The position numbers and the translations under genes were made by a program. Below are positions 5,394 through 33,716 of a DNA stretch of 38,249 bases, piece by piece. The stretch comes from a virus. Location: IMG/VR virus record IMGVR_UViG_3300044684_000585, positions 1 to 38,249 of that record; one strand, written 5' to 3'. The first letter of the stretch is position 1. Each line of letters begins with the position of its first letter. Below the pieces are notes generated by a model that worked only from the letters and a program-made list of their open reading frames with translations, did no database searches and was not told the origin of the DNA.

Positions 5394-5884
5394 GACGCCC
5401 CCTTGAGACACAGCTCGCGCTCACGCTGGCGGCGCCGGGTGAGGCCGAGGACTTCTTTGCCGCCGACGCGGTTCCACATCAGCAGTGCGTCGCATGCGCC
5501 GGTCATGTCGCCGGCGCTGGCCCGGCGCGCCATGCTCGAGCCGCAGAACGCCGGCACGCCGATGTTGAATGCCGCGTCGACGAACGCGATCTTCTGGCCA
5601 TCGGTCAGGCGATGCCACGGCAGGCAAGGCTCGATCCCTTCCGCGTGGCGGGCCAAGTCACGATCGAGCTGCGCGTCGCACTCGGCCGGCGTGTACGTCT
5701 TGCCGGCCTGCGCGTGCTCGGTGGCGCCGTCGCAGTACGTCAGCACGCCGCCGATGTCGCGGTAGGTCTTAAGCGCCCGGCCTTCCTGCGCCGGCGTGAA
5801 CGCCAGCAGCGCGGTCGCCGCTACCGCACCGACGATGGCGACAAGGCCGCGCCTCGATCTGGTCTTGGTTTGGTCGGTGGCCAT
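5390..5884 (-). CDS. GH24 endolysin (lysozyme)
   Basis: A 164-residue lysozyme of the T4/lambdoid muramidase type. The catalytic triad has the usual spacing: E34, D43 and T49 (QEGRALKTYRDIGGVLT), which is E-x8-D-x5-T. An N-terminal hydrophobic segment (about 14-30, GLVAIVGAVAATALLAF) after RSRR suggests a signal-anchor-release or signal-peptide endolysin exported by the host. The ATG at 5884 has GGAGG 7 nt upstream and overlaps the preceding stop (TGATG); a GTG one codon earlier is an alternative. It sits between the membrane proteins and the spanins in a standard lysis operon. Confidence 0.9.
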   Translation of the reverse strand: MATDQTKTRSRRGLVAIVGAVAATALLAFTPAQEGRALKTYRDIGGVLTYCDGATEHAQAGKTYTPAECDAQLDRDLARHAEGIEPCLPWHRLTDGQKIAFVDAAFNIGVPAFCGSSMARRASAGDMTGACDALLMWNRVGGKEVLGLTRRRQRERELCLKGAS

Positions 5885-6138
5885 CACACACCTCCAGTCT
5901 TATTGGCGAGCAGCGGTTTGATCTGCAGCCAGCCGCGATACACCTGCAGCGAGAACTTGGCCACCACGATTGCAAAACCCATGTAGCGGAAGGTGTTCAC
6001 GCCCAGGTGCGGGGCCAGCGCCGGCATCCAGCCCTCGACCGTTGCAATGATTTGATCTGCGTACGGATACGCCAGCAGGAGCAGCGCCCACACGTACTTG
6101 CGAGCCAGTTCCAGTGCTGCGTTGAGCCGGGCCCTCAT
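5884..6138 (-). CDS. Small membrane protein of the lysis cassette
   Basis: An 84-residue protein with two hydrophobic segments (about 15-33, VWALLLLAYPYADQIIA, and about 50-68, YMGFAIVVAKFSLQVY) and a short basic tail. It may be a second holin, an antiholin or a pinholin partner. It overlaps the holin stop by ATGA and precedes the endolysin, so it is translated with both. I do not recognise the family with certainty. Confidence 0.7.
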   Translation of the reverse strand: MRARLNAALELARKYVWALLLLAYPYADQIIATVEGWMPALAPHLGVNTFRYMGFAIVVAKFSLQVYRGWLQIKPLLANKTGGV

Positions 6139-32166: not shown

Positions 32167-32487
32167 ATGACTCTCGCCGAGGCCATTCAAAGGCGGCACC
32201 TGGTGCACTGGCACGACCGAGGATTCGTACGCACGGTCGAGCCGCATTTGTTCGCGCTGCTGCGGGGCCAGCGCTTGGCGTTGATCGCGCGCCAGGTCGC
32301 AGGTGGACCTCCCGACGACGGGCAACCGTGCTGGAAGGTGATTGATGTCAGCGACGGGTTGAACGTCGATCCGGAACGAACCTTCGACGGTCGTGAGCAA
32401 GTTCCGGAGCATTTGCTGGGGCTGGTGCATATGGTCTACGCGTCCCCAACTGTCGACAGAATGCTGCTGCCGGTCGAACGGAGATAG
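32167..32487 (+). CDS. Small protein, WYL-like pattern
   Basis: A 106-residue product starting MTLAEAIQRRHLVHWHDRGFVRTVEPHLFALLRGQRLALIARQVAGG. The RTVEPH-x-ALLRGQ-x-ALIARQVAGG and WKVIDVSD motifs resemble small WYL-type or phage proteins with that beta unit. It reads plus while lying inside the minus-strand early operon, and its last 52 nt overlap the end of the Cro-like gene on the other strand. A weak TAGGAAAT ribosome binding site precedes the ATG. The antisense frame here (32164-32493) looks like shadow. Role unknown. Confidence 0.6.
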   Translation: MTLAEAIQRRHLVHWHDRGFVRTVEPHLFALLRGQRLALIARQVAGGPPDDGQPCWKVIDVSDGLNVDPERTFDGREQVPEHLLGLVHMVYASPTVDRMLLPVERR

Positions 32488-32693
32488 GCCCAATCGATAT
32501 CCGGTCGCAAATCCTCGCAGCGGACTTCGCCATTAGTAAGCCGATCAATAGCTGGGCAATGCTCCGCAGGAACGCGGCGTTTCGGGAGCTTCCATTGGCC
32601 GACCGCGCCTTTTGTGACCTTCAACTCATTGGCGAGAAGTTGAAGGGAACCAACGATAGCAACGGCTTTATCTAATGCTTCTTCCGGGGTCAT
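32436..32693 (-). CDS. Cro/YdaS-like regulator
   Basis: An 85-residue DNA-binding protein with a HTH of Cro/YdaS type: AVAIVGSLQLLANELKVTKGAVGQWK (about 11-36) and PKRRVPAEHCPAIDRLTNGEVRCEDLRPDIDW, typical of YdaS. It is the first gene of the leftward early operon, divergent from the repressor, and its promoter overlaps a repressor-type operator. It would act as Cro, lowering repressor synthesis and favouring lytic growth. Confidence 0.8.
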   Translation of the reverse strand: MTPEEALDKAVAIVGSLQLLANELKVTKGAVGQWKLPKRRVPAEHCPAIDRLTNGEVRCEDLRPDIDWAYLRSTGSSILSTVGDA

Positions 32694-32722: not shown

Positions 32723-32751
32723 AGTATAGTTACTCTATACATTTAGGTCAA
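32723..32751 (-). promoter_or_regulatory. Leftward early promoter (pR-like)
   Basis: On the minus strand TTGACC (32751-32746), 17 bp, TATACT (32728-32723). Both boxes are one base off consensus and the spacing is ideal. It drives the Cro-like gene and the replication operon. The operator 32724-32740 lies across its -10 box and spacer. Confidence 0.75.
32724..32740. promoter_or_regulatory. Operator GTATAG-TTACT-CTATAC
   Basis: Perfect 6-bp inverted arms with a 5-bp spacer, in the gap between the Cro-like and repressor genes. Single half sites CTATAC also occur at 32758-32763 and 32782-32787. The same 6-5-6 operator occurs at 33699-33715. It is the probable binding site of the repressor and/or the Cro-like protein. 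Confidence 0.7.
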
Positions 32752-32797
32752 GCAATTCTATACCTCGTATGTTTAGATTTCCTATACGATCCGCGCC

Positions 32798-33313
32798 ATG
32801 AGGAAAACCGAAGACATGATTGCGTCGTGGGTCCGAGCAACACGCAAAGAAGCTGGCCTCTCTCAAGAGGCCCTAGGAGCGAAGCTTGCCCTTGAACTGG
32901 GTGAAGAAAGGGGCTTCACAAAAGCGAATATTTCCCACTGGGAAAATCGGAAGCACAGCCCTAACCTAAAGCAACTGGTCGCGATTGCAAAAATTACAGG
33001 GCGAACGCTACCCCAGGATCTGTTGGAAGCGATAGGCGGTTCAGCGCCGCCGATATTTGATGACCTGAATACGTCTGTTGAACGGACGCCTGAGCAAGCG
33101 TCCAGCACCGCAGAAAGTGCTAGGTCGTTCGGTAGGCTAAGTGGCTTAGCGAGTCTTCTCGAACTAAAAGCGGATAGTGCGCAAGAACTGCGTCTACTTA
33201 CTATTTACCGCTTGGCGAACGACCGTGAGCGTGAAGCCATTGACGACGCTATCAACGAAGTGAGTGCGCTGATCGAGATGCGAACTTCGCACGAGACGAA
33301 GCGTACTGGTTGA
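32798..33313 (+). CDS. CI-like XRE repressor lacking a cleavage domain
   Basis: A 171-residue protein. Residues about 9-75 are a XRE HTH (VRATRKEAGLSQEALGAKLA; KANISHWENRKHSPNLKQLV). A linker and a helical C-terminal part (about 115-162; SAQELRLLTIYRLANDRERE) follow. No S24/LexA-type Ser-Lys autoprotease domain is present, so RecA-stimulated self-cleavage, the lambda route to induction, is not possible. It is divergent from the Cro-like gene and would keep lysogeny by binding GTATAG-N5-CTATAC operators. Its 3' end overlaps a minus-strand gene. Sequence around it is less GC-rich than the late genes. Confidence 0.8.
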   Translation: MRKTEDMIASWVRATRKEAGLSQEALGAKLALELGEERGFTKANISHWENRKHSPNLKQLVAIAKITGRTLPQDLLEAIGGSAPPIFDDLNTSVERTPEQASSTAESARSFGRLSGLASLLELKADSAQELRLLTIYRLANDREREAIDDAINEVSALIEMRTSHETKRTG

Positions 33314-33451
33314 TTTAACAATCGGATGTTTTGCGGCCTGCGAACGAACTGTATTCATTACGTGGCGGCGCCCCCATTGATCTGTACGGATGTACGCGTG
33401 ACACAGTTCCCTTAACTCGTCGGCGCTTACATCCCACTCTTCGTTACCCAT
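33194..33451 (-). CDS. Small SOS-box-linked gene opposing the repressor
   Basis: An 85-residue product starting MGNEEWDVSADELRELCHAYIRTDQWGRRH. AAGGAG precedes the ATG (33449-33451). A LexA-type box lies about 90 bp upstream, and there is no other gene between them. Its last about 40 codons are antisense to the repressor 3' end. The block SADELREL (9-16) followed by Y and D recalls SAQELRLL in the repressor's C-terminal helices, so it might mimic that surface. It could be an anti-repressor like those known in other LexA-controlled prophages. No family is recognised; the function is inference. A tiny ATG-CTT-TAA frame precedes the ribosome binding site. Confidence 0.5.
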   Translation of the reverse strand: MGNEEWDVSADELRELCHAYIRTDQWGRRHVMNTVRSQAAKHPIVKSTSTLRLVRSSHLDQRTHFVDSVVNGFTLTVVRQAVNSK

Positions 33452-33540
33452 ACCTACTCCTTAAAGCATACCTACCAGGCAAGTAGAGACCTGTCCCGCC
33501 CTCATGTGGCAATGGTAGAACCGCTCCTACACAGCACATC

Positions 33541-33564
33541 AATACTGTACATCCATACAGTATT
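33541..33564. promoter_or_regulatory. LexA (SOS) box
   Basis: AATACTGTA and TACAGTATT are perfect 9-bp arms around CATCCA. The core CTGT-N8-ACAG (33545-33560) with TA flanks is the classical LexA operator form. It lies in the 302-bp gap 33452-33753, nearest to the minus-strand gene ending at 33451; the plus-strand operon has its own promoter/operator at 33687-33716. Confidence 0.8.
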
Positions 33565-33686
33565 TATTTCCAGCAAAATATTTCCAATAGCACATCATTA
33601 AGATGGCCGTTGAGCGTAGAAACGCAAGACGCTGCGCTGTAATCCACATCCCCTACCTACATTTCTTGCTGCAAGTATAGTTTTGC

Positions 33687-33716
33687 TTTACTTTTTCTGT
33701 ATAGCTATTCTATACT
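33687..33716 (+). promoter_or_regulatory. Rightward early promoter with operator GTATAG-CTATT-CTATAC
   Basis: TTTACT (33687-33692), 18 bp, TATACT (33711-33716) form a sigma70-like promoter for the plus-strand operon starting at 33754. The operator 33699-33715 has the same 6-bp arms and 5-bp spacer as that at 32724-32740 and covers the -10 box. A further half site GTATAG lies at 33675-33680. Confidence 0.6.

Follow-up and report, generated by a model that had tools for sequence, protein, structure and literature searches.

The analysed window, which covers all 38,249 nucleotides (nt) of the IMG/VR virus record IMGVR_UViG_3300044684_000585 (positions 1 to 38,249), appears to carry an antirepressor module controlled by the DNA damage (SOS) response inside a phage immunity region, a reading to which a probability of about 0.8 is given. 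A small minus-strand open reading frame (ORF), preceded by a LexA operator, converges with the gene of a repressor that lacks the Peptidase_S24 (S24) domain, and its product belongs to a protein family that was found in a sample of loci only beside repressors of this kind. The central features are the following:

32798 to 33313, plus strand: CI-type repressor, apparently non-cleavable, 171 residues, with a helix-turn-helix (HTH) domain (about residues 1-80), a disordered linker and a C-terminal helical hairpin (Pfam HTH_3 4e-8; AlphaFold).
33194 to 33451, minus strand: small ORF of 85 residues, putatively LexA-controlled, probable antirepressor (conserved in the related phage L001; family of at least 24 members).
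33457 to 33462, minus strand: ribosome binding site AAGGAG, 5 nt before the ATG (from the sequence; AAGGAA in L001).
33194 to 33313: antisense overlap of 120 nt between the small ORF and the 3' end of the repressor gene (from the sequence).
33541 to 33564: predicted LexA operator of 24 nt, AATACTGTACATCCATACAGTATT, with its 20-mer at 33543-33562 (identity to sulA; conserved in L001 and L122).

An earlier sequence-only reading of this DNA had described the repressor, the small ORF, its ribosome binding site and the box, and all four were found where it had placed them. Pfam detected only HTH families and no Peptidase_S24 in the repressor of the window, and in the AlphaFold model the helices of the hairpin comprise residues 106-139 and 142-170. 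The two methods agree with the previous description of a repressor with an HTH domain and a helical tail but without S24. By fold the DNA-binding domain is P22 c2-like, only at a Foldseek E of 0.014. Because the S24 domain is absent, no cutting of the repressor upon DNA damage is expected, and the view that the target repressor is not cleavable by the DNA damage response is supported.

The small-protein family has a core of about 50 residues and the end LxLV, and it was absent from every library searched. Its members gave no match or only noise-level matches in Pfam, PHROGs and NCBIfam, and nothing above noise came from PDB sequence searches or from a fold search with the small protein. When the sequence of the small protein itself was the query, there was no match among 50,697 phage records, a single relative in IMG/VR, and nothing but noise-level matches in 393 genomes. 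The family was reached by two indirect routes, an exact 20-mer scan of IMG/VR and sampling by a neighbouring early gene. The scan led to the related phage L122, whose HTH repressor is quite different and also without S24; it has a 58-residue minus-strand ORF in the same slot, 37 nt from an identical box and with an antisense overlap of 30 nt with the repressor. The loci of the second route were chosen by the adjoining early gene, independently of repressor and box, and each phage was counted once. In this neighbour-anchored sample a family member was present in 12/12 loci with a non-S24 repressor and in 0/11 with an S24 repressor (Fisher p 7e-7), S24 having been confirmed by Pfam in nine of these 11 and three of the sampled loci (L163, L168 and L170) being short genome extracts, with the repressors of L168 and L170 only partly in view. 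The LexA box was found in 7/12 and 0/11 loci, respectively (p 0.005). A profile of 12 members had matches in 28 of the 393 genomes of the sampled family (GTDB grouping), and in 0/329 genomes spread over Pseudomonadota when searched without a positive control.

Because the family strictly accompanies non-S24 repressors and never S24 repressors in the sample, this co-occurrence supports the proposal of the sequence-only reading that the small protein opposes the repressor. The small protein is very probably an antirepressor that inactivates it. An SOS-induced modulator of phage or host, acting for example on cell division or lysis and unrelated to the repressor, would be in keeping with the many kinds of SOS-regulated small proteins that exist and with a box equal to that of sulA. 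Such a function is nevertheless highly improbable in view of the strict association with non-S24 repressors and the absence beside S24 ones, of the other members that adjoin phage-encoded regulators and not LexA boxes, and of the homology of the small protein to the repressor tail described below.

The 20-mer TACTGTACATCCATACAGTA of the box is identical to the sulA LexA operator as read from E. coli K-12 MG1655, a match that is independent of any matrix. The bare core CTGT-N8-ACAG was not significant, with 0.34 occurrences expected per 38-kb window. The full 20-mer scored 22.8 bits with a LexA matrix in which sulA was the one E. coli site taken from a genome sequence, and nothing as good occurred in 300 simulated 38-kb sequences. 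The box is kept base for base in L001 within an otherwise poorly aligning spacer, and in four genomes from the host group of the relatives recA is preceded, at a distance of about 100 nt, by a box of the same type. The identity to the sulA operator and the conservation in L001 bear out the textbook operator that had been proposed upstream of the small gene, and the gene is almost certainly under LexA control, with LexA expected to bind at this site. Another LexA-like site, at 33556 and overlapping the first, reached 15.7 bits; it was dismissed, as it is absent from L001.

The minus-strand ORF is a protein gene under coding selection. It has 79% amino acid identity to its counterpart in L001, where the ribosome binding site is kept as well. 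Outside the overlap the comparison with L001 gave a nonsynonymous rate (dN) of 0.145 and a synonymous rate (dS) of 1.09, and 19 of the 31 differences lie at third positions. Ratios (dN/dS) of 0.13, 0.05 and 0.11 were obtained for three pairs of family members, the value of about 0.13 being that of the window and L001. The AlphaFold model of the small protein shows a hairpin of residues 10-22 and 25-41 with high confidence, and confidence is low for the C-terminus, which is encoded antisense to the repressor gene. The earlier description of a small gene with an AAGGAG site and a 3' end antisense to the repressor gene is thus accurate, the last 120 nt forming the overlap.

The arrangement of the two genes also suggests a different trigger, a LexA-controlled antisense RNA. 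It would silence the repressor gene through interference with transcription or by antisense pairing, and might continue into cro and the rest of the leftward lytic operon. The promoter faces through the repressor gene toward cro, on the same strand as that operon, and family members are convergent with the repressor in every locus with both ends read, with antisense overlap wherever measured. Within the overlap the repressor genes of the window and L001 also show fewer synonymous changes (9 of 32 codons identical in amino acid versus 50 of 97 outside, p 0.025), a deficit that is suggestive only. Against this, overlap lengths among members range from 24 to 198 nt, many of them just 24-48 nt, whereas the protein core is conserved and, together with LxLV, under purifying selection; antisense RNA alone would also not quickly remove existing repressor. 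Stems resembling terminators, with T-rich tails, were found on the minus strand in the repressor gene at a similar place in the window (32997-33015) and L001 (5201-5216). These stems likewise speak against the RNA, though their count is not above chance; such a stem might stop the LexA-driven transcript before cro. The contribution of antisense RNA that the sequence-only reading had allowed for is not upheld as the main mechanism by the variable overlap and conserved core and is considered very unlikely in that role, and it may act as an auxiliary effect beside the antirepressor protein.

How the small protein would act is suggested by its resemblance to the repressor tail, which involves two features of the small ORF:

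33329 to 33424, minus strand: helical hairpin core, residues 10-41, putative homologue of the repressor tail (AlphaFold pLDDT, the predicted local distance difference test, >90; hhalign).
33290 to 33301, minus strand: LRLV motif, residues 51-54, corresponding to the near-invariant LxLV of the family (family alignment).

The non-S24 repressors share a C-terminal motif, LLTxYRxxxDxGRxxI, which is joined to unrelated HTH domains. In L163 nearly the tail of the window repressor stands on a different HTH domain, and a LexA box and a family member are also present. When profiles of small proteins and tails were aligned with hhalign, 12 versus 12 sequences gave a P of 0.0026 (probability 11.5%) and 24 versus 25 sequences a P of 2e-5 (probability 77%, score 25.8). 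None of 200 column shuffles reached the hhalign score, the shuffle maximum being 14.0. The aligned hairpin turns coincide in two separate AlphaFold models (positions 23-24 of the small protein, 140-141 of the repressor), and some sequences match both profiles, for example one in L186 (tail 4.8e-6, small protein 4.3e-7). Because of the hhalign result, the coinciding turns and the sequences that match both profiles, the small proteins are held to be stand-alone distant homologues of the repressor tail.

Three further observations concern this relationship. Two or three relatives of the small protein were found in tandem on one strand in L180, L184, L186, L188, L190, L191 and L195, with the pattern LTxxExxxLxAFRxMDxRxxxE...PxLRLV and apparently no adjoining convergent repressor with the tail motif. 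In L008 the gene of a further HTH protein that has this tail motif (5496-5900, plus strand) lies between the repressor and the small ORF, and it is this gene, and not that of the repressor, that the small ORF overlaps. The linker of the L122, L155 and L162 repressors (about residues 80-95) has ALRIVETVE or RLRIVETVE, which resembles the LRLV of the small proteins; the antagonist may mimic this strand as well as the hairpin.

The repressor tail would serve in oligomerisation, and the small protein would form a heterodimer with it. Such pairing is the likeliest way of disarming the repressor and is rated somewhat above an even chance. The small protein could instead inactivate the repressor through its DNA-binding domain or some other surface, since known phage antirepressors are diverse and those of Gifsy bind the repressor and strip it from DNA (PMC3121763). 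This is less probable, as the repressors beside family members have the tail motif in common but HTH domains that are unrelated, and as the small proteins are themselves homologous to that tail. The chances are about even that tail pairing reflects a new antirepressor family derived from the repressor's own C-terminal hairpin, made up of antisense-embedded copies of the tail that would be dominant-negative partners and a plug-in output for exchangeable inputs.

The control of the small gene differs among the family members. The seven members of the sample with a LexA box (the window, L001, L122, L153, L155, L162 and L163) lack a divergent regulator gene in the slot, and the five without a box (L146, L147, L157, L168 and L170) have a divergent gene for an Arc-like ribbon-helix-helix protein. 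Outside the sample an Arc-like gene was found also at L179, L181, L192, L193, L197 and L199, a LysR-type gene at L008 and L178, and an Arc-like gene plus a box at L177, while L185 and L189 had no recognised regulator. These calls were confirmed by Pfam for Arc in L146, L107 and L032 and for LysR in L008, and the others were made by sequence resemblance. The locus L107 (4607-5857) combines a member, a divergent Arc-like gene and, about 520 nt upstream on the far side of this Arc gene, an exact sulA-type box, and is possibly under dual control. In L090 (1935-2831, minus strand, with the repressor set to plus) a LysR-type gene directly faces, in convergent orientation, the 3' end of the gene for a non-S24 repressor, in the slot that the small ORF takes in other phages. 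In L032 (Duganella sp. OV510) an Arc-like minus-strand gene lies downstream of and convergent with a non-S24 repressor gene, and no family member was detected there. Judged from these gene neighbourhoods, the family is apparently one effector with exchangeable inputs (LexA, Arc-like and LysR-type), amounting to an input-swapping experiment made by nature.

The viral record that makes up the window is of prophage type, with an integrase near the left end, structural genes on the minus strand and early genes to the right, and the likely host family of the phage is Oxalobacteraceae. The immunity region, at about 32.4-33.9 kb, has the order YdaS Cro-like gene (minus), repressor (plus), small ORF (minus), LexA box and rightward early genes, and a ParB-like protein is encoded among the last, beyond the box. 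Its remaining features are these:

32436 to 32693, minus strand: Cro-like regulator of the YdaS family, first gene of the leftward lytic operon (Pfam YdaS_toxin 2.4e-25, P22_Cro 4.6e-8).
32723 to 32751, minus strand: predicted leftward lytic promoter, TTGACC-17-TATACT, overlapped by the operator at 32724-32740 (same promoter in L001).
32724 to 32787: left operators, GTATAGTTACTCTATAC (32724-32740) and two weaker copies (32747-32763 and 32771-32787) (motif count).
33675 to 33715: right operators, GTATAGTTTTGCTTTAC (33675-33691, one mismatch) and GTATAGCTATTCTATAC (33699-33715), over the rightward promoter (motif count).
33687 to 33716, plus strand: predicted rightward promoter, TTTACT-18-TATACT, probably repressor-controlled (prediction).

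The operator motif GTATAG-N5-CTATAC had five matches with at most two mismatches in the window, where 0.08 would be expected; three lie in the interval from cro to the repressor gene, and the other two precede the rightward genes. Perfect copies cover the -10 element of both predicted lytic promoters, and the putatively LexA-controlled gene therefore lies between two lytic promoters that are probably repressor-controlled. The left operators occur in most relatives, and perfect copies of the motif are found again in most relatives whose HTH domain is similar, the S24-bearing ones included. A perfect right copy is also present in L001.

In the proposed sequence of events, the repressor of the lysogen would occupy these operators over the leftward (cro) and rightward early promoters, while host LexA would hold the small gene off. 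Upon DNA damage LexA would be destroyed and the repressor, being without S24, would stay uncut. The small helical-hairpin protein would then be made and would inactivate the repressor, most likely by pairing with the homologous C-terminal hairpin and breaking the repressor dimers or oligomers needed on the operators, as SinI does with SinR. Several points weigh against the SOS-controlled antirepressor module or parts of it. Many family members have no LexA box, for which reason SOS control is not a property of the whole family. A strong sigma-70 promoter was not found on the strand of the small ORF, and the box lies about 91 nt upstream of its ATG. The small protein and the tail share only about 34 aligned positions with about 12% identity, short helical hairpins can converge, and the small protein was modelled as a single chain, apart from the repressor.

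The module would give a prophage without a cleavable repressor a compact route to stay tied to the SOS response. In a bacterial family that has no model phage, the induction trigger of related prophages would be predictable from sequence, a box indicating DNA damage and an Arc-like or LysR-type neighbour another cue. If the family is a plug-in output, related prophages would swap the inducing signal while the disarming mechanism stays, and if the tail homology has the meaning that it suggests, new antirepressors could as a general rule be found as loose copies of repressor tails, a class usually missed by sequence searches.

LexA-controlled antirepressors of uncleaved repressors are established in Gifsy, 186 and N15 (PMC3121763). 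In the Salmonella prophages Gifsy-1, -2 and -3 the small LexA-controlled proteins GfoA, GftA and GfhA inactivate a short, non-cleaved repressor (PMC3121763), and DicA of E. coli Qin is a non-cleavable repressor of 135 residues with the antirepressor Rem (PMC10448788). The window resembles these in the proposed pairing of a short uncleaved repressor with a small LexA-controlled antagonist. In Gifsy, however, the antirepressor gene lies outside the immunity region and the LexA box next to dinI, whereas in the window the box has another position and the gene lies between the operator sets and overlaps cI antisense. Rem, chosen as a GfoA-like protein (PMC10448788) and the sole member of the Gifsy/Rem family compared, had no significant match to the small-protein family model. 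Tum of 186 and the antirepressor of N15 are likewise LexA-controlled and directed against an uncleaved repressor (PMC3121763, PMC10432266), as is proposed for the small protein. Two features of this SOS-antirepressor class, a repressor without S24 and a match to the LexA operator at the putative antirepressor promoter, were found in the window, and co-occurrence and tail homology bear indirectly on a third, the probable binding and inactivation of the repressor by the small protein. To our knowledge, the location and the tail homology seen in the window have not been described for 186 Tum or N15, and by description these are set apart.

Modules of a transcription factor and a small ORF (TF-smORF), such as VqmA/Qtip of VP882 and that of phage 72 (Silpe et al. 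2023), include a homologue-less small protein that inactivates the cI of the same phage, and the transcription factor acts, independently of SOS, on the divergently transcribed small gene (PMC10432266). Their layout matches that of the family members with Arc-like and LysR-type genes. A divergent phage-encoded transcription factor is present in L146, L147, L157, L168, L170, L008 and others, but not in the window, where the LexA box stands instead. Other differences are that the effector family has exchangeable inputs and is apparently homologous to the repressor tail. The family thus seems to span both kinds of input, LexA and the SOS-independent TF-smORF type. In the immI region of P22 an Arc-type repressor stands beside the antirepressor gene, which is reminiscent of the family members with an Arc-like gene; P22 Ant is, however, a large protein, and the window has no Arc gene.

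SinI of Bacillus subtilis is a small antagonist that forms a helical hairpin and is akin to the C-terminal oligomerisation domain of SinR, the repressor on which it acts. It has been named as an oligomer-altering antirepressor (PMC9638930). The SinI Pfam domain had no match in five relatives (E <= 5) or in the window ORF (E <= 1). SinI/SinR is still the closest mechanistic model, as the putative antagonist of the window is likewise held to be homologous to the tail hairpin of the repressor, although the Bacillus system is not from a phage, not LexA-controlled and not antisense. Compared with all these systems, what appears to be new here is the effector family, its probable ancestry in the repressor tail, its location within the immunity region and input switches that can be exchanged.
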